The translations under genes were made by a program, and so were the position numbers. Under the pieces are notes generated by a model that was given only the letters and a program-made list of their open reading frames with translations, had not been told where the DNA came from and ran no database searches. Of a DNA stretch of 41,090 bases, positions 11,757 through 32,877 are shown piece after piece. The stretch lies in assembly GCA_026387455.1 (NCBI GenBank), contig JAPLLR010000063.1, positions 1 to 41,090 on the forward strand, read 5' to 3'. The stretch is from Candidatus Omnitrophota bacterium. Its GTDB lineage: Bacteria > Omnitrophota > Gorgyraeia > Gygaellales > Profunditerraquicolaceae. Numbering within the stretch: the stretch's first letter is position 1; each line of letters begins with the position of its first letter.

Positions 11757-12917
11757 ATGGCAAAATCCAACCTACTTTTTATCATTACCAAGCTGGAATT
11801 AGGCGGCGCTCAGAAGCAATTGTTAAGTCTGATCAATTCCCTGGATAAGAGCAGATTTAATTTGCATTTATTCACTGCTTGGGAGGGTTTTTTAGTTGAG
11901 GATGCCCTGGCTATTTCAGATTTGACCTTCTACAGGTCAAAGTTTCTGGAGCCGCCGATTAACCCTATAAATGATATTCTGGCACTTTTGGAAATCCGCA
12001 GATTCATTAAGATTAACAAGATTACTATTGTTCATACCCATAGCTCAAAGGCCGGGATCGTCGGGCGTTTGGCAGCGTATTTTTCGGGGGTTAAGACTAT
12101 TGTGCATACCGTGCACGGATGGCCTTTTAACGATTATCAGACGCCCTGGTTGCGGGCTTTATATATATGGCTTGAGCGGATATCCTGCGGATTTACCAGC
12201 AGGATCATTGTAGTCTCTTGCCATGATAGAGAAGTAGGTCTCAAGAATGGCATAGGTGAACCCGCTAAATACCGGCTGGTGCGTTACGGAATAGATAGGT
12301 TCGAGTTTTCGGTAGAGGCGGGTTCGATAAGAAAAGAGTTCGGTTTCGCGGATAGTGATTTTGTGATTGGATCAATAGCCTGTTTTAAGCCGCAGAAATC
12401 TCCGGAAGACTTTGTTAGGCTAGCTTCAAGCGTGGCCAAACGCGTTCCGGGCACAAAGTTTCTTTTGGTCGGAGACGGACAGCTGCGCTCGAGCATAAAT
12501 AGGTTGATTTCGGAATATGGCCTAGGTAGCCGTATAACTCTGGCTGGGTGGCGCCGAGATATTCCGCGGGTTATTTCGGCAATGGATATTTTTGTCCTAA
12601 CTTCTTTGTGGGAAGGTTTGCCGATATCGGTGCTTGAGGCAATGGCTGCAGCAAAGCCGGTAGTAGCTACTGATACAGGCGGTATCAGGGAGGTTATTTC
12701 TAACGGAGTCAATGGATTTTTGGTTTCCCGTCGCAATATCAGCCAGATGTCTGATGTAGTAATCACCCTGTTAAAAGATAACGGGCTTAAGGAAGCGCTT
12801 GGCCAGAAGGCTGCAAAAAGCATTACTGATGACCTTAGCGTAGAAACCATGTCTAGATCTACTGAAAATATTTATGCAGAGTTGCTTGTGGATAAAGGGA
12901 CGATGTATGTCAATTAG
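11757..12917 (+). CDS. GT4-family glycosyltransferase
   Basis: This 386-residue retaining GT-B enzyme should transfer a nucleotide-sugar residue to a lipid-linked intermediate at the cytoplasmic face of the membrane. The N-terminal 'IITKLELGGAQKQLLSLI' is the standard start of the GT4 fold. The C-terminal half has 'IGSIACFKPQKSPEDFV', 'FLLVGDGQLRSSI', and the donor-binding EX7E pair Glu286/Glu294 in 'WEGLPISVLEAM', followed by 'AKPVVATDTGGIREVI'. As the first gene after the promoter and just before a WecA-type initiator, it may add the second sugar. Donor and acceptor cannot be read from sequence. Confidence 0.9.
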   Translation: MAKSNLLFIITKLELGGAQKQLLSLINSLDKSRFNLHLFTAWEGFLVEDALAISDLTFYRSKFLEPPINPINDILALLEIRRFIKINKITIVHTHSSKAGIVGRLAAYFSGVKTIVHTVHGWPFNDYQTPWLRALYIWLERISCGFTSRIIVVSCHDREVGLKNGIGEPAKYRLVRYGIDRFEFSVEAGSIRKEFGFADSDFVIGSIACFKPQKSPEDFVRLASSVAKRVPGTKFLLVGDGQLRSSINRLISEYGLGSRITLAGWRRDIPRVISAMDIFVLTSLWEGLPISVLEAMAAAKPVVATDTGGIREVISNGVNGFLVSRRNISQMSDVVITLLKDNGLKEALGQKAAKSITDDLSVETMSRSTENIYAELLVDKGTMYVN

Positions 12918-13878
12918 CGCTGCCTTTATGGTTACGGCAATTTTATTGACTGTGTTTTTGGTGATAGTCTTGCGCGGGTTCAATTCGTTGAGTAAGGATG
13001 GTATGCCGCTTGCCGGAGGCATAGCTATCGGCGTAGCTTTAATTGTGACTAGTATGTATTATTGGACGCCTGCGTGGTTGATGCCAAGCCAGATGCAGGG
13101 TATTTTGATAGCTTCGGGGGTAATGCTGTTGTTCGGTTTTGTCGATGATATAAAGGAGTTGTCTGTTGTCGGAAAGTTAATTGTACAGCTGGCGGCTGTA
13201 GCTATTTTGATTTTATGCGGGGTGCGCACGCATATCGTGTATATCGGAACTACACTTAATATATTGATCACGGTAATTTGGGTGCTAGGGATCACCAACG
13301 CAATTAACCTTCTGGATGTGATGGATGGTTTAGCCGGAAGCGTAGCGTTAATGGTCAGCCTGGCTTTTTGCGTGATTGCCTCGATTAACGGCGATGCGGC
13401 TAACGCCGTATTGGCTTGCGGAATAGCCGCTTCGGTAAGTGGGTTTTTAATCTTCAATTTGCCGCCTGCCAGGCTGTATATGGGCAATGCCGGGAGCCAT
13501 TTTCTGGGGTTTCTTTTTGCCTCTATGGCCATAAGTATCCATTATGCTTCGCTGGAAGCAAAACTTGCTTTAATGGCGCCTATTTTGATACTGGGGTTTC
13601 CTATTTTTGATACCTTATTTCTTATTTTCATGCGCGTTAGAAAAGGCAGATCGGCTTTTAATAAGAGCAATGATCATCTTGCCCTTAGATTTCTTAAAGC
13701 GGGATATTCCAAGCAGGCGGCGTTGTTGATCATGGTTTTGGTAGCGTCGGTATTTGTGGTTAGCGGTATAGCTATGTTTAAACTGCCGGGCGTTTATGTA
13801 TTTATTCCGCCTGCAATTGTCGTTGTATTGTCTATTTTTTTATCAAAAAGGATGAGTCGCGTGGTTATCGATGGCTAA
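12907..13878 (+). CDS. WecA/MraY-type polyprenyl-phosphate sugar-1-phosphate transferase
   Basis: This enzyme loads the first sugar-1-phosphate (usually N-acetylhexosamine-1-P) from UDP-sugar onto undecaprenyl phosphate, starting glycan synthesis. The protein has 323 residues and about ten membrane helices. Key motifs are 'GFVDDIKEL' (Asp80, Asp81), 'NAINLLDVMDGLAG' (Asp137, Asp140), 'NAGSHFLGFLFA', and the cytoplasmic 'KSNDHLALRFLKAGYS'. The form is WecA-like rather than MraY. I place the start at ATG 12907, six bases after an AAAGGGA site and overlapping the GT4 end by 11 bases; ATG 12874 is upstream in frame but unlikely. It is the best candidate for the initiating enzyme of this locus. 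Confidence 0.87.
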   Translation: MSISAAFMVTAILLTVFLVIVLRGFNSLSKDGMPLAGGIAIGVALIVTSMYYWTPAWLMPSQMQGILIASGVMLLFGFVDDIKELSVVGKLIVQLAAVAILILCGVRTHIVYIGTTLNILITVIWVLGITNAINLLDVMDGLAGSVALMVSLAFCVIASINGDAANAVLACGIAASVSGFLIFNLPPARLYMGNAGSHFLGFLFASMAISIHYASLEAKLALMAPILILGFPIFDTLFLIFMRVRKGRSAFNKSNDHLALRFLKAGYSKQAALLIMVLVASVFVVSGIAMFKLPGVYVFIPPAIVVVLSIFLSKRMSRVVIDG

Positions 13879-15169
13879 TAAACGTATCATTATAATTGGG
13901 GCAGGGCTAACGGGCTTAAGTCTTGCTTGGCATCTGCAAAAACGAAAGATCAGCTGTTCGGTATTTGAAAAAGAGCCGGAAGTTGGGGGGCTGTGCCGCT
14001 CAAAGCAGCTCAAGGGGTTCATCTTTGATCATGACGGGCATCTACTGCATTTCAGGCACCGGTATGCTTTCGATCTTGTAGGCCAGTTTTTAGGAGACAA
14101 CCTCGTTGAGCACAAGAGGAGTGCTTGGATATATTCCTACGGCCGGTTTACGCGGTATCCGTTTCAGGCGAATCTTTATGGTTTACCTTTCGGGATCGTC
14201 AAAGAATGTCTTGCTACTTTTGTCAAAGCTCAAAGCAGCGGATATGTTAAAAAGAACGGAAATTTCGCGCACTGGATAAATGCTGTATTTGGCAAAGGCA
14301 TAGCCCGGCATTTCATGGTGCCATATAATAGAAAATTTTGGACTGTGCCGCCAGCAGAGCTGACTTGCGACTGGTTAGATGGGATTATACCGGTGCCGAC
14401 CCTGGCGCAGGTTATTGAGGGGACTGTTGAGGAAAGCAAGAGGCAATTTGGCTATAACGCCCGTTTTTGGTATCCAAAGATTGGCGGGATTAACCAGTTG
14501 CCTCAAGCTATAGCTAAGGGAATCGGCAACATCCATATGAATCAATCCGTTAAAAAGATCGATCTGAAGAAGAAAGAAATTTGGTTCTCCTGCGGAAGAA
14601 GAGAGAAGTTTGATTTCTTGATCTCGACCGCGCCTTTGCCGGAATTGAGTCGCTTGATTGATGGGCTGCCGAAAAGGATGGCTATAGAGTTTTCCCGCTT
14701 GCGCTGGAATTCGATTTTTAACCTCAATCTGGGGATAGAAAAAAGAGAAGATGCTGGGTGGCATTGGGTATATTTTCCGCAGAAAGAATCCTGTTTTTTC
14801 AGGGTAGGTTTTGCGCATAATTTCTCCACGAGCATTGCCCCGGAAGGCAAACGTTTACTGTATGCCGAAGTCTCATATTCAAAAGAAAAGCCTATTGATA
14901 AGCTTAGAATCATTAGTGCGATCATTCGCGATCTGAAGAAAACCGGAATACTTGATTCGAATGATAAAATATGTGCGCAGGATGTCAATGATATTAGCTA
15001 TGGTTATCCTATTTATGACCGCAATTATCGCTTGGCCAGGCAGAGGATTATGGATTTTCTCGGGGTAAACAACGTGATCTCCTGTGGCCGTTACGGCGGA
15101 TGGCGGTATATGTCCATGGAAGATTGCCTGATGGAGGGTAAGGAGCTGGCTGAAAGGTTAAGCTCTTAG
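13871..15169 (+). CDS. FAD-dependent oxidoreductase, amine-oxidase/UGM-like
   Basis: The N-terminal dinucleotide motif 'IIIIGAGLTGLSLAWHLQ' with 'FEKEPEVGGLCRS' and 'GFIFDHDGHLLHF' identifies the flavoprotein superfamily of amine oxidases, protoporphyrinogen oxidases and UDP-galactopyranose mutase. The 432 residues contain 'MVPYNRKFWTVPPAELTCDW', a pattern resembling the UGM-like branch common in surface-glycan loci. The C-terminal FAD motif reads 'NVISCGRYGGWRYMSMEDCL'. The start overlaps the preceding gene by eight bases. A role in sugar ring interconversion or oxidation is inferred from location; a true UGM assignment is not secure. Confidence 0.8.
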   Translation: MANKRIIIIGAGLTGLSLAWHLQKRKISCSVFEKEPEVGGLCRSKQLKGFIFDHDGHLLHFRHRYAFDLVGQFLGDNLVEHKRSAWIYSYGRFTRYPFQANLYGLPFGIVKECLATFVKAQSSGYVKKNGNFAHWINAVFGKGIARHFMVPYNRKFWTVPPAELTCDWLDGIIPVPTLAQVIEGTVEESKRQFGYNARFWYPKIGGINQLPQAIAKGIGNIHMNQSVKKIDLKKKEIWFSCGRREKFDFLISTAPLPELSRLIDGLPKRMAIEFSRLRWNSIFNLNLGIEKREDAGWHWVYFPQKESCFFRVGFAHNFSTSIAPEGKRLLYAEVSYSKEKPIDKLRIISAIIRDLKKTGILDSNDKICAQDVNDISYGYPIYDRNYRLARQRIMDFLGVNNVISCGRYGGWRYMSMEDCLMEGKELAERLSS

Positions 15170-16670: not shown

Positions 16671-17495
16671 ATGGGTATGAAAAGTTTTTTTAGGGAGATA
16701 TATTTAAGGCGAGATTTGGTGCGGGAATTAGTGGTTAGAGATTTGAAAGTGCGCTATGCTCGTTCTGCGCTTGGAATTTTGTGGGTATTCTTTTCACCAC
16801 TTCTGACGGTGGCCGTTTTCTATTTGATCTTTTTTCTTTTTTTGAAGGTTAACACCGCCGAGGCGCCGTTTATATTATACCTGATGACTGCTGTCTTTAC
16901 CTGGCGCTTCTTTCAGGATTCGCTTATGTGCTCTGTCACCAGCCTTGTGGACAATAGAAACCTGGTACGCGAGTCAAATTTCCCGCATTATCTTATACCC
17001 CTGTCTATAGTTTTCTCAAATGCAATTATATTCATGTCTTCCTTAGTGATTTTGTTGATTTCTGTATTTGTTCTTAAAGAATTTTCGGTCTGGGTTTTAT
17101 TTTTGCCCTTGGTTTTGAGCGTGCATTTCATTATTGTCTTAGGGTTGTCAATTATAAGTTCTGTCATCTATGTACGCTGCCGGGATTTAAAATATGTTTT
17201 AGAAGCGCTATTGCTTCTTTTATTTTATTTGACCCCGGCTTTTTATTCGATATCTCTGGTAAAAAACTCATTCCCGCGACTTTTATTTGAAATTTACCTG
17301 TATAACCCTTTTACTGTAATTTTAAACCTGTACCGGTTTACTTTATTAAAGGGTTGTTATGTCGTAATTCATGAGGATATTAGTCTTATTGCATCGGTAT
17401 TGTCAATTTTTGTCTTTGCACTATTTGTTCTATGTTTAGCTCTTTGGTATTACAAAAAATATAGATTGAAGATAAATGATTATCTTTCTTATTGA
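16671..17495 (+). CDS. wzm: ABC-2 type polysaccharide exporter permease
   Basis: This is the membrane half of an ABC exporter that moves undecaprenyl-linked polysaccharide to the periplasm. The 274-residue protein starts with the typical cytoplasmic 'LVRELVVRDLKVRYARSALG' and 'ILWVFFSPLLTV', followed by about six hydrophobic helices, and has the family 'VIYVRCRDLKYVLEALL' segment before the last helices. It is followed by its ATPase gene 25 bases on. The start at 16671 has no clear ribosome binding site; ATG 16677 is an alternative six bases on. Confidence 0.9.
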   Translation: MGMKSFFREIYLRRDLVRELVVRDLKVRYARSALGILWVFFSPLLTVAVFYLIFFLFLKVNTAEAPFILYLMTAVFTWRFFQDSLMCSVTSLVDNRNLVRESNFPHYLIPLSIVFSNAIIFMSSLVILLISVFVLKEFSVWVLFLPLVLSVHFIIVLGLSIISSVIYVRCRDLKYVLEALLLLLFYLTPAFYSISLVKNSFPRLLFEIYLYNPFTVILNLYRFTLLKGCYVVIHEDISLIASVLSIFVFALFVLCLALWYYKKYRLKINDYLSY

Positions 17496-17519
17496 AAAAA
17501 GATATGGGAGCGTTTGAGT

Positions 17520-19208
17520 ATGGATATTGTGATTGAGCTAAAGCAGATAAGTAAAAAATACCCTAATCCCGGAGTTTTTGACGAACAGATGCGTTCTGAC
17601 TTAGGCGATTTTCTTGCGCTATGCGATATTTCATTGGGCATCTCACGGGGGGATGTTATAGGAATAATTGGCAGGAATGGGGCTGGCAAGACCACACTTT
17701 TAAACATTTTAGCTGGCGTATTGTCTCCTACACAAGGGCAGGTCTTTACGAAAGGCAGGGTTTTAGGCCTATTTAATTTAGGTGTTGGTTTCCAGGATGA
17801 ATTGACCGGAAGACATAATATTTTTCTAAACGGTACATTATTAGGCGCTACGAGAAAAGAAATTGAGGAAAAGTTAGACACGATAATCGGGTTTTCCGAA
17901 TTGGGGGATTTTATTGATATGCCGCTGGGCTCGTATTCTCAGGGTATGCGACTTAGGCTGGGGTTTAGCATTATCACCAGTCTTGATTTTGATGTTCTGT
18001 TGTTAGATGAGATTCTGGCTGTGGGGGATCTTCTTTTTCAAAGCAAATGTTTTGAGCGTATGATGGATTTTAGGCGACAAGGCAAGACACTGGTGATTAC
18101 TACTCAGGATATGGGGTTGATCGAAAGACTGTGCGATAAAGTCGTGCTTTTGGACCATGGGAGAGTACTGTTCTGCGGACATGCCGAAGAATGTATATCC
18201 AAATACCGTGCCTTACTTAGTGCGGAGAAGTTTTTTGTAGGAGTAGCACACAAAAAAATTATTTTATTCGAAAATACTAAAAAGTGGGGCGATGTCGCTG
18301 AATGGGGGAAAAAGCTCGGGACAAAAGAGGTGGTCATAGAGTCGGTAGAGTTTATAAACAGGTTTGGTTTTAAGTGCGGCAGGATAAAAAGCGGAGGATC
18401 TTTAAGGATCAGGTCAAAGTTTAATTCTAGGAACAGTGTCAAAGAAGCTCATTTTGGCGCGGCTATATTTAGAGGAGACGGGGTCTATTGTTATGGGCCC
18501 AATACGGCTTTTGATGGGCACTTAATTAAAGAGATAAGGGTAGGAAGGGGGTGGTTTGAGCTACGTTGCAATGAGTTGTTGTTGGCTCCCGGGGAATATA
18601 AAGTTTCCGTTGCTATCTGGGATAAGAATGAATCTTTGGCTTTTGATTATCATAGCGGTTATTATAATCTAAAAGTGGATGGAAAAGTTAACGGGGTAAA
18701 AGAATTATTAAGCATCCCCGCCAGTATCAAAAATAATATTTTAAAAAAAGATATGATGATGGCTTTTAATCCGGATATATTGAATAAGGATAAAACTCAG
18801 GATATATCTAACGAACGCGTGAAGTCGTTCTTGGTAGGCTTAGTGGATAAGGACGCAAAGTCCAGGGAAGCTTTTATAACTAATGATCCGGCATCTCTTA
18901 GGATTAATTTTCAGGGCCAATTGACTAACCGCCCTAATTACTGTCTTTGGGCAGGTTTTTTTCGTAGCGACAACGTATTCTGTCATGGGTTTATTCTTCT
19001 GTTTAATGAAATAGGATATTCAGAGCTGACTTTTGCCGAATTGCCGCGTTTGCCCGGAGGATACAGGGTTGCGGCTGGCCTATGGGATAAAGAAGAAAAA
19101 AGGTTTATTTATTTCTGCCACAATGCCTGCGTTTTCCGGACAGTTTCTGAAAAAGGAGATCATGGGACTATTTATTTAAAGCATAAATGGGATTGGAGGC
19201 TCCCCTAA
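17520..19208 (+). CDS. wzt: ABC exporter ATPase with two Wzt-type C-terminal domains
   Basis: This ATPase powers Wzm. Residues 1-240 are the nucleotide-binding domain: Walker A 'GRNGAGKTT' (51-59), signature 'YSQGMRLRLGF' (139-149) and Walker B 'VLLLDE' (159-164). The switch (H-loop) position reads 'ITTQDMGL' with Gln196, where nearly all relatives have His. About residues 255-385 form one Wzt_C-like beta sandwich ('GWFELRCNELLLAPGEYKVS', 'VAIWDKN') and about 425-562 a second ('ELPRLPGGYRVAAGLWDKEE'), ending in 'LKHKWDW'. Wzt_C domains recognise the finished chain end. The ATG at 17520 is chosen; TTG 17514 is possible. Confidence 0.9.
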   Translation: MDIVIELKQISKKYPNPGVFDEQMRSDLGDFLALCDISLGISRGDVIGIIGRNGAGKTTLLNILAGVLSPTQGQVFTKGRVLGLFNLGVGFQDELTGRHNIFLNGTLLGATRKEIEEKLDTIIGFSELGDFIDMPLGSYSQGMRLRLGFSIITSLDFDVLLLDEILAVGDLLFQSKCFERMMDFRRQGKTLVITTQDMGLIERLCDKVVLLDHGRVLFCGHAEECISKYRALLSAEKFFVGVAHKKIILFENTKKWGDVAEWGKKLGTKEVVIESVEFINRFGFKCGRIKSGGSLRIRSKFNSRNSVKEAHFGAAIFRGDGVYCYGPNTAFDGHLIKEIRVGRGWFELRCNELLLAPGEYKVSVAIWDKNESLAFDYHSGYYNLKVDGKVNGVKELLSIPASIKNNILKKDMMMAFNPDILNKDKTQDISNERVKSFLVGLVDKDAKSREAFITNDPASLRINFQGQLTNRPNYCLWAGFFRSDNVFCHGFILLFNEIGYSELTFAELPRLPGGYRVAAGLWDKEEKRFIYFCHNACVFRTVSEKGDHGTIYLKHKWDWRLP

Positions 19209-19209
19209 A

Positions 19210-19899
19210 GTGAAACAAGCAGCCGGGTTGCCAAGTCTTTCTGTGATTATTCCGAATTATAATGGTGAGTCAGTAATTTGCGATTGCCTAGGCTCAGTGT
19301 ATGGCACTAAGTACCCGTTTCTTGAAGTTGTCCTTGTTGACGATGCTTCAAAGGATAATTCAATTTCAGTAGTGAGGAAGTATTTTCCGCAGGTAAAGAT
19401 TTTAGAAAATCGATTCAACTCTGGATTTGCCCGAACTGTTAATACCGGCATTAGGGCGTCAAGCGGAGAGATCCTCGTCTTGTTGAATATGGATATAACT
19501 TTAGACGCGGATTGTTTAGGTCAATTGGCTAAGGGCTTGGTAGAAGATAAAGAGGTGGGCATAGCGGGCCCTAAGATGTTTTTCCCGGACGGCAAAACAA
19601 TCCAGCACGCGGGTGGCAAAATTAGGCCTAATGGAGTTTCTGTGCATGTTGGTAGGGGCGAATTAGATTCTGGGCAGTATGATTACGTAGCGGAAGTTGA
19701 TTATCTTTGTGGGGCGGTTATTGCGTTGCGTAGGGATTTGCTGCTTGATTTGGGTTGTCTGGATGAAGGATATAGCCCTCCAGAATTATTAACTGCGCTT
19801 GTGGCTGCTTACGCGATAAATATTATGACTTTTCCTTACCTATTCATGTCAAGGATTCCAAGATACAACGCTCCAAGGGTGGAGGTGGGAAATGAGTAA
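19210..19899 (+). CDS. GT2-family glycosyltransferase with a shortened C-terminus
   Basis: The N-terminal GT-A domain is normal: 'LSVIIPNYNGESVICDCLGS', 'VVLVDDASKDNS', 'NSGFARTVNTGI', and a DxD-position motif 'LNMDITLD' (93-95). The part after 'LCGAVIALRRDLLLDLGCLD' departs from the family: where relatives have 'yFEDvDLCLRARKaGY' there is 'EGYSPPELLTALVAAYAINI', and the protein ends at 229 residues rather than about 290-310. The acid-base EDxD motif is absent. GTG at 19210 is the start, ten bases after a GGAGG site. The stop overlaps the next start. It may be inactive or specialised. Confidence 0.82.
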   Translation: MKQAAGLPSLSVIIPNYNGESVICDCLGSVYGTKYPFLEVVLVDDASKDNSISVVRKYFPQVKILENRFNSGFARTVNTGIRASSGEILVLLNMDITLDADCLGQLAKGLVEDKEVGIAGPKMFFPDGKTIQHAGGKIRPNGVSVHVGRGELDSGQYDYVAEVDYLCGAVIALRRDLLLDLGCLDEGYSPPELLTALVAAYAINIMTFPYLFMSRIPRYNAPRVEVGNE

Positions 19900-22783
19900 G
19901 GTCATGGTTCTGGGTATTTCACCTCTGCCGTTTGAAAATGAGATATCGCTTAGCGGCCCGGGTATTAGGACTTGGCAGTTTGTTAAGCCTGTGCTTGAAG
20001 ATGGGCATGAAGTCTGCTTGATTTGCCTACAGCCTTCGGAAGGGTACAAACAAAAAATCAGCGGGCTGATTCATATTGGTAATTATAAAAGTTTAAAATA
20101 CTATTCTTTGTCGTTTAAAGATTTTAATGAGTTAACAAATATCCAAAAAATCCATGATGATTTTAATCCGGATTGTATTTTTAGCTTGAGCTCTTTTGGT
20201 CCTTCTTATGCCGCGGTACAGCTTGCTACCGGTAAACCCATATGGTTTGACCGCGGAGATATAATGGCAGAAGCCCAAATAAAGGTAATTGAGGAAAATA
20301 ACAATGATTACTTGTATAATTTTTGGAACCTGGAGGAGATGGTCTTAGAAAGAGGCGATGTGTTTTCCGCAGTATCTTTGCCCCAAAGATTCTCTGTTAT
20401 CGGAAGATTGGGGGGCGCTGGGCGCTTAAATAGCCAGACCCTAGGTTACGAGTTTGTTCATGCGATACCCTGTGGTATTGAGAGCGGAAGTTACAGCCAC
20501 ACCAAGAGCATAATCCGGGGAAAAAGCGTATCAGAAGGAGATTTTGTAATTCTCTGGTCAGGCGGTTATAACAACTGGACAGATATTGATACATTATTCT
20601 CAGGCTTAGAAATAGCCATGAGTGGAAATAGCAGGATAAAATTCGTATCAACGGGCGGCGAGATCTCGGGCCAAAGAGAAGCTGTTTATGCGCGATTCTT
20701 AAGACTAATAGATGGTTCTAAATATAAGGATCGCTTTATAATGCTGGGGTGGGTAGCGACAGAAGACCTGGCGAATATTTACTTGGAAAGTGACTTGGGA
20801 ATTAATATTGACAAATATTGTTACGAAGTTGTGCTTGGTAGTCGGCACAGGCTCCTTGATTGGATGAAAGCAGGCTTGCCGATTCTCACCACAAATTTTA
20901 GCGAATTGACGCATTTATTGCATTCAAATAAAATGGTTTTTACTTATCCAGACGCAGATCATCTGGCTCTTGCGGAGAAGTTTCTTAAGTTGTCGCTTAA
21001 AAAAGAGGATCTTTTAGAGTATGCGCAAAGAGCGAAGGTTTTCGTAAATATCGAATTCACATATGAAATAACTACCAAGGTTTTTCGTGATTGGGTGAAA
21101 GATCCAAAGAATTCACCGGATAATATAAATAAAGATTACTCTCTGCCTAGTTTCGAACAAAGATGCAAAGAAAATTTTTTACGGAAAATCGAGTCTTATA
21201 GGTTAGAGCTGGATAATTATAAAGTCCGTTTCTCTAATCTTGAGGCTGATCGTCTGAATCTTGAAGCTCATATTTCTAATCTTGAGGTTGATCGTCTGAA
21301 TCTTGAAGCTCATATTTCTAATCTTGAGGCCGAGCACCTCACCTTTAAAACTCACATTTCTAACCTTGAGGCGGAGCGCCCTATTTTAAAAACTCATATC
21401 GCTAATCTTGAGGCCGAGCACCTCACCTTTAAAACTCACATTTCTAACCTTGAGGCGGAGCGACAGAATTTTTATGCGCGCGTTTCTGGCTTGGAGCAAA
21501 AATTAAACAGTATTACTTCTACTCGGGCATACAGATTATATAACTCAATGAAGAAATACGCCGTGTTGCTAAATTCCTATAAAAGGTTGATCGCCAGTAT
21601 GTACAAAAAGAATAAGCCCAGTTGGTTATTTAGCGATAATATAGAGCAGAATCACGAAGATTGTAAAAATCTTTCTGGGGTGGTAAAGAGTAAACCCATA
21701 TTAATCTACGCTGAAATCAGCACAAAATGCAATTTGCATTGCAGTATGTGCGGAAGAGGTAACTATCAGATTCCTCTCGCTGATCAGGGTTTTATGAGTA
21801 GGAAAGTGTTTGATAGGCTTTCAACGCTGTTTACTCCCGGTGCCCAGCTTGCCCTGTTCGGACGAGGAGAGACTCTTCTCCATCCGGATTTTATTTATTG
21901 CTTGAGATTAGCTAGAAATGCCGGTATGAGAGTAGGGTTCAACACTAATGGGTTGCTTCTTAATGAAGAAATCGCGAAAGAAATGGTTCTAAATAAACAG
22001 ACGCATATTACTTTCTCCTGCAGCGCAGGAACGCCGGAAACTTATAATAAAATTCACTGTATAAACGCCTGGGATAAATTATGGGAAAATATAGATATGT
22101 TAAATGAGGCAAAAAGGAGGTTTGGGTCAGCGGGGAAGCCCGAAAATATAACGCAAATTAATCCGGTAGTATATCTTGAATTTGTTTCGCAACTGGATAA
22201 TATTTCTGAGCTGCCCGCATTATTGCGTTTGGCTTTTGAGCACGACATAATGGGTTTGATGGTTATTGATGTAGTTGCCCATTCAAAAGAATTAGAGAAG
22301 CAAAGGATGAATATTCCCGAAAATAGTGCGTTAGCTGACAGGTATTATCGTGAGGCCTCCGCCATATATAAAGAATTGACCAAAGAAAGAAATCGCGACT
22401 TTGACTTCAGGCTGCCAAGTTCCTATTCTGCTATAACCAAGAAGTTCATTACAGAGCAAGAAAGAGATAAGCTGGGAGAGATAGAGCATTCAGCTGCTAA
22501 TGAGGGAAGATCGGGTAAGGTTAATTTTTGCATTGAACCATGGCAAACATTCTATGTCCGTTTTGACGGCACGGTGGCTCCTTGTGTTATCACAGGAAGA
22601 AGGCTGGGTGATCTAAATAAGAACACTGCTGAAGAAATATGGAATGGTGAGGTTTTTCAAAAGTTCCGTCTAAGGATGAGAAGTGAAAGCAAGCCTTACG
22701 AATGCTTGCGATGCCATCTTTTCCCTGGTCCCAAGAGATACAATTTAGAGTTGGATGACTATAATAAGTATGAGTCATTATGA
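19892..22783 (+). CDS. Fusion of GT4-like glycosyltransferase, coiled coil and radical SAM/SPASM enzyme
   Basis: The 963-residue protein combines three parts. Residues 1-410 are a GT4-like GT-B glycosyltransferase, with 'PLSGPGIRT'-type opening 'SLSGPGIRTWQF', donor-side 'GSRHRLLDWMKAGLPILTT'. Residues 448-531 are six 14-residue repeats ('SNLEADRLNLEAHI' and variants) forming a coiled coil, followed by 'SITSTRAYRLYNSMKKY', a tail common after such rods in glycosyltransferases. Residues 600-963 are a radical SAM domain with the cluster motif Cys613, Cys617, Cys620 ('STKCNLHCSMCGRG') and a C-terminal SPASM-like domain ('GTVAPCVITGRRLGD', 'YECLRCHLFPGP'). I know of no characterised protein with this order. 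Confidence 0.85.
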   Translation: MSKVMVLGISPLPFENEISLSGPGIRTWQFVKPVLEDGHEVCLICLQPSEGYKQKISGLIHIGNYKSLKYYSLSFKDFNELTNIQKIHDDFNPDCIFSLSSFGPSYAAVQLATGKPIWFDRGDIMAEAQIKVIEENNNDYLYNFWNLEEMVLERGDVFSAVSLPQRFSVIGRLGGAGRLNSQTLGYEFVHAIPCGIESGSYSHTKSIIRGKSVSEGDFVILWSGGYNNWTDIDTLFSGLEIAMSGNSRIKFVSTGGEISGQREAVYARFLRLIDGSKYKDRFIMLGWVATEDLANIYLESDLGINIDKYCYEVVLGSRHRLLDWMKAGLPILTTNFSELTHLLHSNKMVFTYPDADHLALAEKFLKLSLKKEDLLEYAQRAKVFVNIEFTYEITTKVFRDWVKDPKNSPDNINKDYSLPSFEQRCKENFLRKIESYRLELDNYKVRFSNLEADRLNLEAHISNLEVDRLNLEAHISNLEAEHLTFKTHISNLEAERPILKTHIANLEAEHLTFKTHISNLEAERQNFYARVSGLEQKLNSITSTRAYRLYNSMKKYAVLLNSYKRLIASMYKKNKPSWLFSDNIEQNHEDCKNLSGVVKSKPILIYAEISTKCNLHCSMCGRGNYQIPLADQGFMSRKVFDRLSTLFTPGAQLALFGRGETLLHPDFIYCLRLARNAGMRVGFNTNGLLLNEEIAKEMVLNKQTHITFSCSAGTPETYNKIHCINAWDKLWENIDMLNEAKRRFGSAGKPENITQINPVVYLEFVSQLDNISELPALLRLAFEHDIMGLMVIDVVAHSKELEKQRMNIPENSALADRYYREASAIYKELTKERNRDFDFRLPSSYSAITKKFITEQERDKLGEIEHSAANEGRSGKVNFCIEPWQTFYVRFDGTVAPCVITGRRLGDLNKNTAEEIWNGEVFQKFRLRMRSESKPYECLRCHLFPGPKRYNLELDDYNKYESL
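21233..21484 (+). repeat. Six tandem 42-bp repeats inside the fusion gene
   Basis: Six consecutive 42-base units, each 14 residues (two heptads), make up the coiled coil of the fusion. Units 1 and 2 differ by one base in the first 40 or so. A block of 60 bases (21319-21378) is repeated exactly at 21403-21462, 84 bases on, so the array also carries a higher-order two-unit period. The pattern points to recent slippage or unequal exchange. Confidence 0.9.
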
Positions 22784-22814: not shown

Positions 22815-23981
22815 ATGAGCAAAAGCTTATTAAATTACAACCGTTTTTCATTGGCGTCCAGTTATGCAATTGCTTTATTTTTTGTATCCGTTCTCTGGTT
22901 ATTTATTGGCATCTGTTTTCTTATAACTGAGATATTGGCGATATTGCTATATCGCTCGAAAAAACCGAAAAGCAGTAGTTTTCAAGAGGGGCTGGTATCC
23001 ATTACCATCGTAAATTTGAATTCTAAGAATTATATCGTGGATTGCCTTGAATCGATAAAGAAACAGAAATATCCAAAAGTCGAGATCATCATAGTGGATA
23101 ATAATTCTACTGACGGGTCTTTGGAATGCATAGAGAGTTTTCTTTCACGTTGCTCCATAGAAGCGAAGATCATTAAGAATAAAACAAATGTCGGGTTTTC
23201 CAGGGCTCACAATCAGGGGATTAGGATTTCCCGCGGGGAATATTTTTTACCGCTTAATTTTGATGTCTTGATCTCCGAGAGATTTATATTAAATATGGTA
23301 GAAGAGATGGAGGCGGATAGCAGAGTGGGGATATCCAGCGGAAAACTTTTAAACATACCACAAAAATCGATAATTGATACTGCCGGAGTCTTTTTAAAAG
23401 ACCTATTTTGTTGTGACAGGGGACAAGGCCAGGCCGACGAAGGCCAATATGAAAAAAAAGAATATATCTTTGGCGCAAGCGGGTGCGCCCCATTTTATCG
23501 GAGGAATATGCTGGAAGATGTAAGGTTTAGGAATGAATATTTTGATGAAACATTCAATACATATGTCGAAGATGTGGATCTATCATGGCGTTCTCAGATC
23601 TATGACTGGAAATGTTTGTATAATCCAAGAGCTACGGGCTATCATTATAGAGGGGCGACAAGGGTCAATAATAGCAAAGCCCTAACGAATTATTTCATTC
23701 AAGGTTTTAGAAACAGGTATCTTATGATCCTAAAAAATCTATTGCTTGTTTCTTTTTTAAGGAATTTTACTTCATTAATGTCAGCGGAAATCAAATTCTG
23801 GACCTTGAATTTCTCTATAAAAAGAAGCTTTTATGCGAAATTCATCCCAGGCTTTATTTTCTTGTCACCGGCTGTTTTAATAAAAAGAGTTAGCATCTTA
23901 CAAAATGCAAAAGTTTCCTCGCGAGAGATAGAATCAGCTTTATTTGTTCAGGATTGTCAGAATTTTATTAATAAACCATGA
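22815..23981 (+). CDS. Membrane-associated GT2-family glycosyltransferase
   Basis: Residues 17-46 are hydrophobic and should anchor the enzyme. A complete GT-A domain follows: 'VSITIVNLNSKNYIVDCLES' (61-80), 'IIIVDNNSTDGS' and 'NVGFSRAHNQGI', with 'LNFDVLI' (147-153) at the DxD position and the catalytic 'VEDVDLSWRS' (251-260). The 388-residue length includes a C-terminal hydrophobic-helical tail. These enzymes add rhamnosyl, mannosyl or similar residues to lipid-linked glycans. It has its own 31-base gap upstream but overlaps the next gene by ATGA. The donor sugar is unknown. Confidence 0.9.
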   Translation: MSKSLLNYNRFSLASSYAIALFFVSVLWLFIGICFLITEILAILLYRSKKPKSSSFQEGLVSITIVNLNSKNYIVDCLESIKKQKYPKVEIIIVDNNSTDGSLECIESFLSRCSIEAKIIKNKTNVGFSRAHNQGIRISRGEYFLPLNFDVLISERFILNMVEEMEADSRVGISSGKLLNIPQKSIIDTAGVFLKDLFCCDRGQGQADEGQYEKKEYIFGASGCAPFYRRNMLEDVRFRNEYFDETFNTYVEDVDLSWRSQIYDWKCLYNPRATGYHYRGATRVNNSKALTNYFIQGFRNRYLMILKNLLLVSFLRNFTSLMSAEIKFWTLNFSIKRSFYAKFIPGFIFLSPAVLIKRVSILQNAKVSSREIESALFVQDCQNFINKP

Positions 23982-25339
23982 GTAAACTAGATTTAAATAA
24001 GGTTTTACTTTTTTATTGTGGAATTACCGAATGTGGTTTTGGTAGTCTTAGGGGTAATGAAGGGACCTGGATCAACCATGGGCTCTGCCTCATCAGTGCA
24101 GTTTTAAAGAAAGAAGGTTACAATACGGAATTGGTTGATTTGCGCAGATTACAAGATTGGAATGATTTGGAAAGATTTGTCAAAGAAGAGAAATTTGATA
24201 TAGCTGGTTTTACTGTGATGAGCGTCGATTATAATCCGGTTACAAAATGTATAGAGATAATTAAACGGCTAAAACCTGCTGCCAAGGTGATTGTTGGAGG
24301 CCCCCACGTTTCCATATGCCCAGAGGAGCTGACGTCAAATAAGAATATAGATTATGTTTTTATTGGTGAGGCCGAAAAGAGCATAGTCCCCTTGATTGCA
24401 AAAATACGAAATAATGAAGTTCAGGATAGGGTTGTTTATGGAGAGAGGCCTAACTTAGACGAGCTTCCTTTCGCAGACAGAGAGCTTTTTTCTTTACCCG
24501 AAGAACCCTTTGTCCCTTTTTTAAAAGGGCCATTTGTTACTTTGATTGCCGGACGGGGTTGTGTGTATAATTGTAATTACTGCCAGCCGGCAGAAAGAAT
24601 AATTTTTGGAAGCGGGGTCAGGAGGCGGAGCGTTGAGAATATAATTAGCGAGCTTGAGTTTATGCGTAATAAGCAGAATTTTAACAGTATGATGATTCAT
24701 GACGACTGCCTTACTGAAGATAAGGCATGGATAATGGAGTTTTGCAGTAAATATACGAAAAATGGTTTTAATCAACCATTTGTTTGTCAGAGCAGGCCGG
24801 ATTTAATCGTAAAAAATATTAAAATGGTCAAGCATTTAAAAAAAGCTGGGCTGGCTATGTTTATTGTCGGCTTTGAAAGCGGAAGCCAGAGGATGCTGGA
24901 TTTTCTGCAGAAAGGGACAACAGTCAGGCAGAATATCCAAGCTGCTGAAATTTGCCACAGATTTAAAATAAAAATATGGGCAAATTATATGCTGGGGCTG
25001 CCCGGAGAGACAAAAGAGGAGCAGCGCATGACTGTGGATATGATTAAGAAAATCAGGCCTTACCATTGCAGTCCTGCTTATTATACTCCCCATCCCGGCA
25101 GCAAATTGTTCGATTATTGCCAGAAAAACGACCTTTCCCTTATAAAAAATCATGATGACTATAGAAGAAGCACGTATGAGCCAAAAATAAAAGGGATTGA
25201 CTACGATTATCTTAAGGGATTGCTGTATGAATCTATATCGTACGGGGAAGACGGCAGAATAAAAGGTACGGGCAGGCTATTGCTAAATAGAATTAAGTCC
25301 TTTTTGAATCTAAATAAACAGCCATCAGGGACAAAATGA
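23978..25339 (+). CDS. Radical SAM protein with B12-binding-like N-terminal domain
   Basis: The first 150 residues have the fold pattern of a cobalamin-binding domain ('GLCLISAVLKKEGYNTELVD', 'FDIAGFTVMSVDYNP', 'AKVIVGGPHVSICPEE', 'IDYVFIGEAEK'), without a DxHxxG histidine, as in many class B enzymes. The radical SAM cluster motif is Cys195, Cys199 and Cys202 in 'GRGCVYNCNYCQPA'. 'LAMFIVGFESGSQRMLDFLQ' and 'ANYMLGLPGETKEEQRMTVD' are standard for this group. Known members methylate unactivated carbons or rearrange lipids and natural products. It overlaps both neighbours (ATGA), both glycosyltransferases, so a glycan or lipid substrate is likely but unproven. Confidence 0.88.
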   Translation: MSKLDLNKVLLFYCGITECGFGSLRGNEGTWINHGLCLISAVLKKEGYNTELVDLRRLQDWNDLERFVKEEKFDIAGFTVMSVDYNPVTKCIEIIKRLKPAAKVIVGGPHVSICPEELTSNKNIDYVFIGEAEKSIVPLIAKIRNNEVQDRVVYGERPNLDELPFADRELFSLPEEPFVPFLKGPFVTLIAGRGCVYNCNYCQPAERIIFGSGVRRRSVENIISELEFMRNKQNFNSMMIHDDCLTEDKAWIMEFCSKYTKNGFNQPFVCQSRPDLIVKNIKMVKHLKKAGLAMFIVGFESGSQRMLDFLQKGTTVRQNIQAAEICHRFKIKIWANYMLGLPGETKEEQRMTVDMIKKIRPYHCSPAYYTPHPGSKLFDYCQKNDLSLIKNHDDYRRSTYEPKIKGIDYDYLKGLLYESISYGEDGRIKGTGRLLLNRIKSFLNLNKQPSGTK

Positions 25340-26253
25340 ATCCCTACGCCAAACAGATTTCGGTAGTCATAGTTGCTTATAATTCAGAAGAATTCATTGA
25401 AGATTGCCTTGATTCTTTAGCCAGGCAGGATTTTAAGGATTTTGAAGTAATTATTATAGATAACAATTCAAAAGATAAAACAAAAGAAATTATAAAAATT
25501 AAATATCCCGATGTGCATATAATCGAAAACCACAGTAACGAAGGCCCCTGTAAGGCGCGTAATCAAGGTATAGCCGTGGCTAGGGGTGAGTTTATATTGT
25601 GTCTTGACCATGATACCAGATTTCACCAGAATTTCTTAGGTACTTTGTACTCTTCCATAAAGAATAGAGATTGTATCGCGGGGGTTGGCCCGAAGATCCT
25701 GATGGCAGATACAAAAATAATTTATAGCTTTGGAATACACAGAACTTTCTTGCGTCGTTTTTATGACATTGGAAGCGGAAAAAAAGATTTAGGAGTAGAA
25801 AATATAGAAAAATATGTTTTTGGCGTATCGGCTGCGGCAGTATTGTATAGAAAAAAGGCGTTAGAGGATATATGGTTTAAGGGGGAGTATTTCGACAAAG
25901 ACTTTTTTTATTTCTTGGAAGATGTTGATATAAGCTGGAGAATGCGCAAAAAAGGATGGGAGTTTCTGTATCTTCCGCAGGCTCAATGCTTGCATATCGG
26001 GGGAAGGTCCAGGAAGAAGGATGGGATTTCGCAGTATCTTTGCATGAGAAACAGATACTTATTAATCATTAAGAATGAGTCGTTGTTCGGGTTACTGAGG
26101 TTCCTTGCGGTATTTCCGGTATATGATTTATGGCGCATACTGTTTATGTTATTGGCAAATACTCGCTATTGTTTGAAGGCGCTTAATGATATAAGGCAAC
26201 TTTATCCTGCAATGGTTGGTAAGAGATATTCTAGGAATTTTAGCAATGCCTAA
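25336..26253 (+). CDS. GT2-family glycosyltransferase
   Basis: This is a complete 305-residue rhamnosyl-type GT2 enzyme: 'ISVVIVAYNSEEFIEDCLDS' near the start, 'IIIDNNSKDKTK', 'NEGPCKARNQGI', the metal-binding 'CLDHDTRF' (89-96), and the catalytic 'FLEDVDISWRMRKKGW' (193-208). A hydrophobic C-terminal stretch (about 250-280) suggests membrane contact. It starts inside the end of the radical SAM gene (ATGA) and ends eight bases into the O-antigen ligase-like gene. Sequence and layout resemble the enzyme at 22815-23981, so the pair probably arose from related ancestors and builds adjacent linkages. Confidence 0.9.
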   Translation: MNPYAKQISVVIVAYNSEEFIEDCLDSLARQDFKDFEVIIIDNNSKDKTKEIIKIKYPDVHIIENHSNEGPCKARNQGIAVARGEFILCLDHDTRFHQNFLGTLYSSIKNRDCIAGVGPKILMADTKIIYSFGIHRTFLRRFYDIGSGKKDLGVENIEKYVFGVSAAAVLYRKKALEDIWFKGEYFDKDFFYFLEDVDISWRMRKKGWEFLYLPQAQCLHIGGRSRKKDGISQYLCMRNRYLLIIKNESLFGLLRFLAVFPVYDLWRILFMLLANTRYCLKALNDIRQLYPAMVGKRYSRNFSNA

Positions 26254-27487
26254 TAATGCTTCTAAATACTGGCAGGTTTCATTGTTCCTTATTTTCTTTG
26301 TATGGATTTCGTTCTTTCCGTTTCCCCTGGTGGACCGTTACGGGTGGTATATCAAGATAGTTTTTGGTGTAATTTTGCTTTTTATTAATTTTTTTAATAA
26401 AGTGCAAAATCCGCTGATTGAGGCTCGAGATTGGCCTTTATGGTTGTTTCTGTTTGTTATTCCATTAAGCATTGTTGGCGCCGTTAATAAAAGCCTTGCT
26501 CTGAGCGCGTATTTGAATATCGCCTTAGCATTCTTAGTTGCTTTTTACATTGGTAAGTTAGTATTCGGTTCTCTGCAGAATAAGGTGTTTTTCTTTTTGG
26601 TTATTAGCGCATGTGCGTTTATTGTGGCAACATACGGATTATTTGAATTTGTTGTTGGTAAGAATATATTATACGTGAAATTTGTCCCAAACAGTTATTA
26701 TGAACGATATAGCGTTTATTTCCCTCGTCCCATGTCAACACAGTTTAACCCGGTTATTCTAGGGTCTTTTCTAATTGGATGCTTGCCATTTAGCTTTATT
26801 TTTTGCGAATCTAAAAAAAAGCTTCACCGGATTTTCGGAACTATTGCAGTCATTGTAAGCGTAAGCATAATATTGCTTACTGCTTCCCGAGGAGTTTTTC
26901 TGGGCTTTGCGGCTCTTTGCGGATTTTATCTATGGAAAAGCGGCAAAAGAAAACTTACTTTTGTTTATATACTTTTACTCCTTATTTTCGCATTTTTCTG
27001 TTCTTTCTCGGTAAACAAGAACCTGCGTCAAATCGGCTTTGATAAGATATTATATGGAACATTTGATAGTTCAATATCAAGCTATCGCGCTGACAGGGCT
27101 TCTATGGCGATGCGTATGGCCAGCGAACATCCAATTTCGGGAGTGGGTCTTAAGCATTTCAGGTTGCTTTTTAATAAGTATTCGAAGTATGACGACGGCT
27201 CAATTGAACCTTATGAGTTTATGATTCCGGATAATATGTATCTATCTTTTTTGTCAGAGACAGGATTTTTAGGGCTATTAGCTTTTTTGACTTTTATTTT
27301 TTTGTTAGTAAGGAGGGGCATACAGAGATTTAATGCCGAACAGGATAGGCAGGTTAAATTGATAATACTGATGCCGTTATGCGCTTTGATTGGGCTGTTG
27401 GTGAATATGGGAGCTTACGATTTATTTTATTGGGACAACCCCTTAATGCTATTTTCCTTAATATGCGGATTTATTTCAGCTGCTTGA
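26246..27487 (+). CDS. O-antigen ligase/polymerase-like membrane protein (Wzy_C family)
   Basis: The 413-residue protein has about eleven membrane helices and the signature of the WaaL/Wzy superfamily: 'LTASRGVFLGF' (where the Arg helps bind the lipid-linked glycan), 'HPISGVGLKHFRLLFNKY' and the periplasmic 'PDNMYLSFLSETGFLGLLAF', the place where ligases have a catalytic His. Here the corresponding 'DNMY' replaces the usual 'HNhy', so the family histidine is missing. The start at ATG 26246 has an AGGAA site; ATG 26216 is upstream in frame inside the previous gene. It could polymerise or attach the chain, but an ABC export system normally has no Wzy. Confidence 0.78.
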   Translation: MPNNASKYWQVSLFLIFFVWISFFPFPLVDRYGWYIKIVFGVILLFINFFNKVQNPLIEARDWPLWLFLFVIPLSIVGAVNKSLALSAYLNIALAFLVAFYIGKLVFGSLQNKVFFFLVISACAFIVATYGLFEFVVGKNILYVKFVPNSYYERYSVYFPRPMSTQFNPVILGSFLIGCLPFSFIFCESKKKLHRIFGTIAVIVSVSIILLTASRGVFLGFAALCGFYLWKSGKRKLTFVYILLLLIFAFFCSFSVNKNLRQIGFDKILYGTFDSSISSYRADRASMAMRMASEHPISGVGLKHFRLLFNKYSKYDDGSIEPYEFMIPDNMYLSFLSETGFLGLLAFLTFIFLLVRRGIQRFNAEQDRQVKLIILMPLCALIGLLVNMGAYDLFYWDNPLMLFSLICGFISAA

Positions 27488-27891: not shown

Positions 27892-29088
27892 ATGATACCG
27901 AGACGTAAGGCTCATATTTTACCGGGTGAGTTTTGTAAAGCACTCTGGGCATGTCAAGAAGAAAAGAATTTCTCTGTCTCTTGTGTGGGGCGGTGGGAGG
28001 AAGCTTTTGCGCGGTATAACGGTTCGCAATTCGCGGTGAGCACAGGTTCAGGACGTTTAGGCCTAGAGCTTATTTTGCGGGCTTTGGAGTTGAAGCAGGC
28101 TGATGAAGTGATTATTCCGGCCTACACTTTAAAGGATCTGGTAGGAATAATTCAGTCTCTTGGGTTGGTCGCTGTTCCCGCGGATATTGACAACGAAACT
28201 TTTAATATAAGCCAGGAGTCGATAGAGAAGAGGGTTACCTCGCGCACGAAAGTAATTCTGGCTACGCATTTGTTCGGAGCTCCTTGTGAAATTATCAAGA
28301 TCCAGGAGATAGCCCGTAAAAACTCTATTTTTGTCATTGAAGATTGTGCTCACGCGGCCGGCGCAGTATTCCAGGGGCACAAAGTCGGCAGTTTCGGTGA
28401 TGCATCTTTTTTTAGCTTTGAGACCATGAAGCCTATTAATACCTATGGCGGAGGAATGGTGGTTACTAATTCGCAAAGGCTTGCCGATAGTATCCGCTTA
28501 ATATCCGCCGGATTCAGAATAGATGAAAATGTGCCTACAGCGAAGGTTATAAGCACTTTGTGTGAAACCGGTTTTCTATCTACGCCTTTAGCGTATCCAG
28601 CTTTATATATGATGGCTTCTAGGGGCTGGAGTACATATTGTTCGGCCATTTATAGGAGAGTTCAAAAGCCAGCCGGAAGAAAGACTTTTTCTGATTTCCA
28701 GGCTTTAGTGGGTTTGGAGAAACTGAAGTCTCTTGACGAAAGGATCAAGGCTAGAAATAAAAAAGCGCAAACCCTACGGGAGTCCTTAAGTGATTCTATC
28801 AAGATCCAGTCAATTATCCCGGGGTCACTTTCGAGCTATTATTTTTTTGTGGCAATAGTTGATTCGGATGTGTGGAAAACCAGGAAGTTTTTACTGAGGC
28901 GGGGCATTGATGCCGGGATAGGCTCTGAGATTGCTGATGATTGCGCCATGCTGTTGGGGTACCACGATTGTCCGAATGCGAAAAAGGTATTTGAGCGCGC
29001 TATTCAGATACCACTCTATGAAGATATTTCAGAGCGCGCTATTAAATATGTGGCTAAAACACTATCCACATCAGTAAAGGAAAAATGA
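27892..29088 (+). CDS. DegT/DnrJ/EryC1/StrS-family PLP aminotransferase
   Basis: The family transfers an amino group from glutamate to a keto-nucleotide sugar, making amino sugars for surface glycans. The 398 residues show 'FAVSTGSGRLGLELILRA', the PLP-pyridine Asp151 in 'VIEDCAHAAGAVF', 'SFGDASFFSFETMKPINTYG' with Lys180 as the Schiff-base lysine, and 'ARNKKAQTLRESL'. The usual 'SFHPTKNLTTGEGG' is changed to 'SFETMKPINTYGGG' but the lysine is kept. The ATG abuts the previous stop and the end overlaps the next gene by four bases. A role in making an amino sugar for this glycan is inferred. Confidence 0.88.
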   Translation: MIPRRKAHILPGEFCKALWACQEEKNFSVSCVGRWEEAFARYNGSQFAVSTGSGRLGLELILRALELKQADEVIIPAYTLKDLVGIIQSLGLVAVPADIDNETFNISQESIEKRVTSRTKVILATHLFGAPCEIIKIQEIARKNSIFVIEDCAHAAGAVFQGHKVGSFGDASFFSFETMKPINTYGGGMVVTNSQRLADSIRLISAGFRIDENVPTAKVISTLCETGFLSTPLAYPALYMMASRGWSTYCSAIYRRVQKPAGRKTFSDFQALVGLEKLKSLDERIKARNKKAQTLRESLSDSIKIQSIIPGSLSSYYFFVAIVDSDVWKTRKFLLRRGIDAGIGSEIADDCAMLLGYHDCPNAKKVFERAIQIPLYEDISERAIKYVAKTLSTSVKEK

Positions 29089-30167
29089 AGTTAAAAGATT
29101 CAATTCGTTACGTCGGTGATTTTCTTGAGGTAAAACGCTGCAGGAGAAAGATGCAGCCTCCCCCCAGTATTTTATTTCCGCTTATCTGGATAACCGGAAA
29201 ATGTAACCTGAAATGCAAGATGTGCGACCAGTGGTTGGAAGAGAAGCAGCCTGTAGATGAGCTCTCGACTAAAGAATGGCTCGAAGTTATCGATTCCGCT
29301 TGTAACCTGCGGGCTGCAATTATACTTATTACGGGGGGAGAGCCATTCTTAAGGGCGGATATATTTGATATCCTCGGTTACATCAGAAGAAAAGGGTTGT
29401 CTTCGCATATCTGCACTAATGGGACGCTGCTTAATGAATCTGTGGTTGAGAAATTAAAAAGTTCGGGATTGGATAGTATTTCGGTCTCTCTGGATAGCCA
29501 TATTCCGGAGGTATACAACATTATCCGCGGGGCGCATGTTTTTGATGATGTGGTAAACGGTATCAAGATATTACGAAAAGGGATTCCTCGACTTAAGATC
29601 GGGATAAACTGTTTCATTTCTAAATCGAATTTTAAAGATATCTATAAAATGGTTCCATATGCGCAAAGCCTGGGAGTTGACCAGATCAAGTTCGATACTA
29701 TACATACTCACCTCAGGCATCGGAAAAAGAGCCTGACTAATGTGGATGAGCTTCTTTTCTCTGAAAAGGATTTGCCCGAGCTTTCTCAAGAGATGCATAA
29801 ATTGCTTACTACCTTTTCCAAGAGCCGTTTATTGACAAATTCCCGCACCTTCATTAATGGAATCATTCACGCCTATAATGGTAAGACGCATCCGTGGGGT
29901 TGTTTCGCGGGCTATGTTTCTTGCACAATTGATCCTTCGGGGAAGGTTACACCTTGTGATAATACCGATAGCGGACTTGACGTGCGCAAAAACACGCTTG
30001 AAGAAATATGGAATTCCGAAAGATTCCAGGAGCTCAGGAATAATGTGCACAACTGCTCTTTGGCATGCTGGGATTCTACTCATGCGGAGCTCAATATCAG
30101 GTGCGCAAGGTGGGGGTTGTTTAGGGAGTTTAAGCAGATAGCCAGGGAGCTTAATTTTTACTGTTAA
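29085..30167 (+). CDS. Radical SAM enzyme with C-terminal SPASM-like domain
   Basis: The 360-residue protein has the cluster motif Cys40, Cys44, Cys47 in 'TGKCNLKCKMCDQW', then 'ILITGGEPFLRADIFDIL' (SAM-binding GGEP), 'ICTNGTLLNESVVEKL' and 'SISVSLDSHIPEVYNIIRG'. The C-terminal part, 'GCFAGYVSCTIDPSGKVTPC', has cysteines and ends 'VHNCSLACWDS', the layout of SPASM/Twitch domains that bind extra clusters. SPASM enzymes include PqqE, AlbA and sugar or peptide epimerases and cyclases. No precursor peptide gene is nearby, so a sugar or lipid substrate is more likely here. It overlaps the aminotransferase (ATGA). Confidence 0.9.
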   Translation: MKLKDSIRYVGDFLEVKRCRRKMQPPPSILFPLIWITGKCNLKCKMCDQWLEEKQPVDELSTKEWLEVIDSACNLRAAIILITGGEPFLRADIFDILGYIRRKGLSSHICTNGTLLNESVVEKLKSSGLDSISVSLDSHIPEVYNIIRGAHVFDDVVNGIKILRKGIPRLKIGINCFISKSNFKDIYKMVPYAQSLGVDQIKFDTIHTHLRHRKKSLTNVDELLFSEKDLPELSQEMHKLLTTFSKSRLLTNSRTFINGIIHAYNGKTHPWGCFAGYVSCTIDPSGKVTPCDNTDSGLDVRKNTLEEIWNSERFQELRNNVHNCSLACWDSTHAELNIRCARWGLFREFKQIARELNFYC

Positions 30168-30169
30168 AG

Positions 30170-31792: not shown

Positions 31793-31811
31793 TGCTGGAG
31801 GCAGGATAAAT

Positions 31812-32876: not shown

Positions 32877-32877
32877 A

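Follow-up and report, generated by a model that had tools for sequence, protein, structure and literature searches.

Whether one gene can join a sugar-transferring enzyme, a rod of heptad repeats and a radical enzyme, and what the three would accomplish together, is the question raised by a long frame in the middle of the window, the whole stretch of 41,090 nucleotides of Candidatus Omnitrophota DNA that was analyzed here (Table 1). A sequence-only reading had described an uninterrupted frame of 963 codons at 19892-22783 that encodes a GT4-like glycosyltransferase (GT) domain at residues 1-410, 14-residue heptad repeats, and a radical SAM (rSAM) domain with Cys613/617/620 and a Cys-rich, SPASM-like end. 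The unbroken frame is borne out by the reading of open reading frames, the three cysteines lie at the positions claimed, and the other parts are taken up below. In terms of known proteins, the architecture is a variant of three familiar kinds, namely a GT-B transferase, a coiled-coil protein of glycan assembly and a twitch radical SAM enzyme.

Table 1. Coordinates of the fusion gene, its parts and its operon neighbors in the window.
Feature	Position	Strand	Remarks
Fusion gene, 963 aa: GT-B glycosyltransferase, coiled coil, radical SAM/twitch	19892..22783	+	Ortholog L019:16090-19080:-
GT4-like GT-B domain, residues 1-410	19892..21121	+	Motifs invariant across 14 relatives, several phyla
Coiled coil, residues 424-546	21161..21529	+	Counterpart 418-592 in G046, 423-587 in G208
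Six 42-nt tandem units (14 aa, two heptads)	21215..21466	+	Nested 84-nt repeat, 97% matches
Basic helix after rod, residues 541-575, ITSTRAYRLYNSMKKY...	21512..21616	+	Where stand-alone relatives stop
Radical SAM core, residues 609-741 (Pfam span)	21716..22114	+	CX3CX2C at 613/617/620 (21728-21751)
Predicted twitch domain, residues 880-942	22529..22717	+	CX12GX4C (880, 898) and CX2C (938, 941)
GT4	11757-12917	+	Conserved upstream operon block 11757..15169
WecA/MraY-type glycosyl-1-P transferase	12874-13878	+	Conserved upstream operon block
FAD amine-oxidase-like protein	13871-15169	+	Conserved upstream operon block
Wzm-like ABC-2 transporter permease	16671..17495	+	Conserved in G046 and G208
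Wzt-like ATPase, Wzt_C (269-389) and second, diverged Wzt_C copy	17514..19208	+	
GT2 gene	19210..19899	+	Overlaps fusion start by 8 nt
GT2 glycosyltransferase, next gene	22815..23981	+	Conserved in window and G046
B12-binding radical SAM protein	23978..25339	+	Neighbor in G046; adjoins rSAM tail in G208
O-antigen ligase/polymerase (Wzy_C) membrane protein	26216..27487	+	

The fusion is real, rare and conserved between genera. Among 108 genomes of the family, a genome of another genus (G046) contains a full-length match in a single open frame of 1003 codons, whose protein of 996 aa is 52% identical, follows the same domain order and keeps the same entry into the radical SAM domain (SKPILIYAEISTKCNL in both); homologs are thus not always split, and the frame in the window is a genuine single gene that is due neither to chance nor to a mis-join. 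Near-identical rod repeats could mislead a short-read assembly, yet an assembly or frameshift artefact joining two genes can be set aside as extremely improbable, since an independent genome carries the same frame and junction and the base composition is uniform along 19892-22783. The exact architecture occurs in two of the 128 genomes of the order and its GT domain in three of the 384 genomes of the phylum; the order of parts, which had been called unfamiliar, is therefore indeed rare, but GT and rSAM domains are fused elsewhere as well. Open-access literature searches, which were not exhaustive, returned no description of such a fusion, and viral contigs contained no relative, so that a viral origin was rejected. 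An AlphaFold model of the full-length protein from three sequences reached a pLDDT of 46 and was set aside.

A second state of the same cluster is found in a genome of another family (G208), in which the upstream block seen in the window leads to a separate 605-aa gene for the GT domain and coiled coil that ends after the rod, with a further ORF between it and the end of the contig. The rSAM tail has a counterpart with 70% identity in a fragment at the start of another contig of that genome, with the same B12 radical SAM gene next in order. To the extent that the contig reveals it, this genome does not encode the GT and rSAM parts in a single gene, and the arrangement indicates that they belong to one cluster, with fusion as one of two states; moreover, because the GT and coiled coil stand alone in this genome, linkage is not needed. 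Of the earlier proposal that physical linkage implies action on the same glycan or at the same membrane site, the shared glycan pathway is retained, but "implies" is too strong.

The N-terminal domain is assigned to the GT-B fold and is GT4-related, as two Pfam glycosyltransferase group-1 domains exceed their cut-offs within the first ~400 residues (Glyco_trans_1_4, 29.5 bits against 27; Glyco_trans_1_2, 26.6 bits against 25). The GT4 family of CAZy usually carries an EX7E motif; in this protein E312-X7-R320 replaces it, and EX7R is invariant in 14/14 relatives, so that by its sequence the domain is GT4-like and falls outside the strict definition of GT4. Across 14 relatives from several phyla, GPGIRTWQ, SGxYNxWxD and YEx3GS(R/K)xR are invariant; in 14 members of the subfamily, the window protein among them, more than 50 alignment columns are invariant, and the window copy keeps these residues. 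A single-sequence search of the PDB with this domain gave no match, and a profile search gave distant GT-B matches only. Stand-alone members of the subfamily (L031-L042) occur in Chloroflexi, Actinobacteria, Acidobacteriota and Sumerlaeota; they share the invariant motifs and 34-47% identity over the GT domain, but carry no rSAM domain and, in those scored, no long coiled coil. Several of them close with a short basic helix, for example NPFYRLFRFFKRLF, and the post-rod helix of the window protein, STRAYRLYNSMKK, occupies the matching position, by which the rSAM half looks as if it had been added onto the end of a complete GT. The hydrophobic moment of this helix is nominally high in several stand-alone relatives, a value biased by the choice of the best window, and the amphipathicity of the window copy is not significant (p about 0.06).

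Between the two catalytic parts lies the rod, in which the 14-residue heptad repeats noticed earlier correspond to six 42-nt tandem units (TRF score 189) together with an 84-nt array, and a Lupas-type score places coiled coil at residues 424-484 and 499-546. All three lineages have the coiled coil, at ~123 residues in the window, ~175 in G046 and ~165 in G208; stretches of the array are near-identical, which leaves the exact number of repeats uncertain.

The C-terminal half belongs to the radical SAM superfamily by its three cysteines, a Pfam Radical_SAM match (residues 609-741, 1.1e-12), its predicted fold and its Foldseek matches; its core carries GRGE where many relatives carry GGEP/GxGEP. 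A full SPASM domain, which holds two auxiliary clusters, follows the motif CX9-15GX4C ... CX2CX5CX3C ... C. The end of the window protein does match the Pfam SPASM model (residues 880-942, 1.2e-13), which agrees with the SPASM-like character first assigned to it, but its cluster cysteines number four only (880, 898, 938 and 941) and none follows Cys941. Their spacing, CX17C and CX2C as in the alignment with the aminocyclitol dehydrogenase BtrN, forms a predicted cluster site, and the C-terminus is accordingly classed from its sequence as a twitch domain with one auxiliary cluster rather than as a full SPASM domain. The best PDB match of the rSAM half by sequence profile is BtrN as well (E 1.4e-33, with a profile built from 29 mixed Omnitrophota rSAM domains), and a single-sequence search gave weak matches only. 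BtrN, whose auxiliary cluster is ligated by four Cys, oxidizes an aminocyclitol (PMC9012708). Twitch enzymes of this type share with the window protein CX3CX2C and one four-Cys auxiliary motif (CX17C, CX2C); the window enzyme, in contrast, is larger, stands behind a GT and a rod, and is ~14% identical to BtrN in a structural alignment. The model of this half, computed with 29 relatives, has a pLDDT of 86.5, and its Foldseek neighbors are mixed, comprising peptide enzymes (SuiB, the best match, SkfB and anSME) and sugar-related ones (BlsE, DesII and BtrN); because both kinds are among them, the fold leaves the substrate unfixed. A two-electron oxidation of a sugar is plausible.

The surrounding genes supply the setting. 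Since the fusion gene follows Wzm and Wzt, it is assigned to ABC-transporter-dependent glycan assembly, and the operon seems to serve the synthesis and export of a surface sugar chain. The window and G046 have in common the order GT4, WecA-like, FAD protein, Wzm, Wzt, GT2, fusion, GT2, B12 radical SAM, GT2, to which the window adds a TPR gene at 15174; an operon with Wzm/Wzt, WecA-like and GT genes is conserved in all three lineages. The upstream GT2 gene (19210-19899) lacks ~80 codons, in frame and including the YYED acceptor-side motif, that both orthologs keep, and is either a decayed gene or an assembly collapse. The window contains seven of the 27 rSAM matches of the 1.68-Mb genome. These seven radical SAM genes lie within 21 kb (19892-40603), at 19892, 23978, 29085, 31812, 35539, 37903 and 39542; twice among them (29085/30170 and 31812/32878, within 29085-34302) a radical SAM/SPASM gene is followed by a related multi-spanning membrane protein.

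Joining a GT to a radical SAM domain is a recurrent theme in this family. SPASM-type domains were surveyed in 105 of its genomes, yielding many long open frames, of which some were read. The order rSAM-GT4 was found in L078 and L088 and, by sequence and BLAST similarity, in L091; GT2-rSAM was found in L080 and, by the same means, in L089; and a frame of 2053 residues (L083:3-6161:+) contains a long coiled coil, a hydrophobic segment, GT2, GT4 and two radical SAM/SPASM-type domains. These proteins likewise place a glycosyltransferase and an rSAM/SPASM-type domain in one chain, but differ from the window protein in their GTs (GT4 or GT2), their order and their rSAM lineages, and are non-orthologous. 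As the GT2 and GT-B partners are unrelated to each other, the fusion arose on more than one occasion. In the rSAM tree the fusion types stand apart; an AU test did not reject a single clade for the window-type and GT2-rSAM-type domains (p 0.166), and therefore the independence of these two fusions rests on the non-homologous GT partners and not on the tree. Sugar transfer and radical chemistry thus probably belong to one pathway. Elsewhere in the family, rSAM domains are joined to TPR, B12-binding or further rSAM domains and, as judged by eye, to a methyltransferase (L062). Single frames in other genomes of the family hold three or four radical SAM domains, some with a B12-binding domain (L086:870-6359:-, L085, L077), and L090:1040-3208:+ has an N-terminus that by eye resembles an aldo/keto reductase and a ferredoxin, followed by a radical SAM/SPASM-type domain.

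In ABC-dependent O-antigen systems, Wzm/Wzt exports a lipid-linked chain that has been synthesized at the cytoplasmic membrane, the carbohydrate-binding domain of Wzt reads the chain end, and in several such systems the terminating enzyme sits on a coiled-coil protein that keeps it at the distal tip of a rod, away from the polymerase (PMC11231755; PMC3482155). A C-terminal carbohydrate-binding domain on Wzt is a mark of systems with rod-bearing terminators (PMC11231755). Like WbdD, WbbB, Klebsiella O4 ORF7 (GT137) and O7 ORF6, the window protein begins with a catalytic domain, continues into an extended coiled coil and is encoded in an operon that also has Wzm and a Wzt bearing such a domain; a spacer role for the rod would fit the known coiled-coil rulers of this assembly (PMC11231755, PMC3482155). 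Unlike those terminators, the window protein has a GT-B domain from a different family and, beyond the rod, a radical SAM domain, and any role in termination is putative.

We tentatively favor, at a little under an even chance, a bifunctional enzyme of Wzm/Wzt-dependent surface-glycan assembly in which the GT and rSAM domains would work on the same chain or its donor. We infer a sugar as the radical substrate, contact with the membrane, and oligomerizing and spacing roles for the rod. The GT-B domain would add a sugar to a polyprenol-linked chain; the coiled coil would oligomerize the protein and keep the catalytic ends apart, at a distance of ~18 nm in the fully extended state; and the basic helix would keep the post-rod end close to the inner membrane. 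There, the radical SAM/twitch half would make a 5'-deoxyadenosyl radical and strip a hydrogen from a sugar, either in the same chain or in its donor, while its one auxiliary cluster of four cysteines would accept an electron, in a dehydrogenation as in BtrN or in an epimerization. Action in two steps on one glycan is the most economical reading of a protein that has a GT at one end of the rod and a radical enzyme at the presumed membrane end.

A sharper form of this explanation, rather unlikely, is a WbdD/WbbB-like terminator with a ruler, in which the distal GT would cap a chain long enough to reach it, Wzt would recognize the cap, the rSAM domain would modify the chain close to the membrane, and the length of the rod would set that of the glycan. 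Its layout is that of Klebsiella O4 ORF7 and other such proteins (PMC11231755), and the rod varies in length among relatives and is built of two-heptad units; however, a Wzy_C protein is also present in the operon, and the scored stand-alone relatives outside Omnitrophota lack the long coiled coil. Quite improbable is the bolder proposal of a new class of ruler enzyme, one of several convergent Omnitrophota fusions, that would couple glycan capping to the radical rewriting of a sugar in the assembled, lipid-linked chain through a coiled coil of evolvable length; such fusions would then suggest that surface polysaccharides are edited by radical chemistry after their assembly.

Alternatively, the fusion may merely hold two pathway enzymes at 1:1, with the coil as a plain oligomerization linker that neither spaces nor channels. 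The unfused GT and coiled coil of G208 agree with this, as does the variety of fusion partners and orders in the family, which is expected if co-localization suffices; it is nevertheless rather unlikely, given that all three lineages keep a coiled coil and both fused ones keep the junction with the rSAM domain. The rSAM half might instead mature a peptide or protein, modifying a polypeptide that works alongside the glycan machinery, for its closest NCBIfam models (TIGR04311 and TIGR04317, all well under their cut-offs) are maturases and its top Foldseek match is a peptide enzyme. Repeated fusion to glycosyltransferases points to glycans instead, an unsystematic reading of the operon showed no precursor-peptide gene, and the maturase reading is considered improbable.

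Radical SAM genes crowd this glycan operon, and the repeated fusion to GTs ties the radical step to sugar transfer. Each of these fusions is encoded by one gene, whose expression offers a way to the substrate, and if radical chemistry does edit surface polysaccharides during or after their assembly, it would constitute a route to sugar diversity apart from the nucleotide-sugar pathways.
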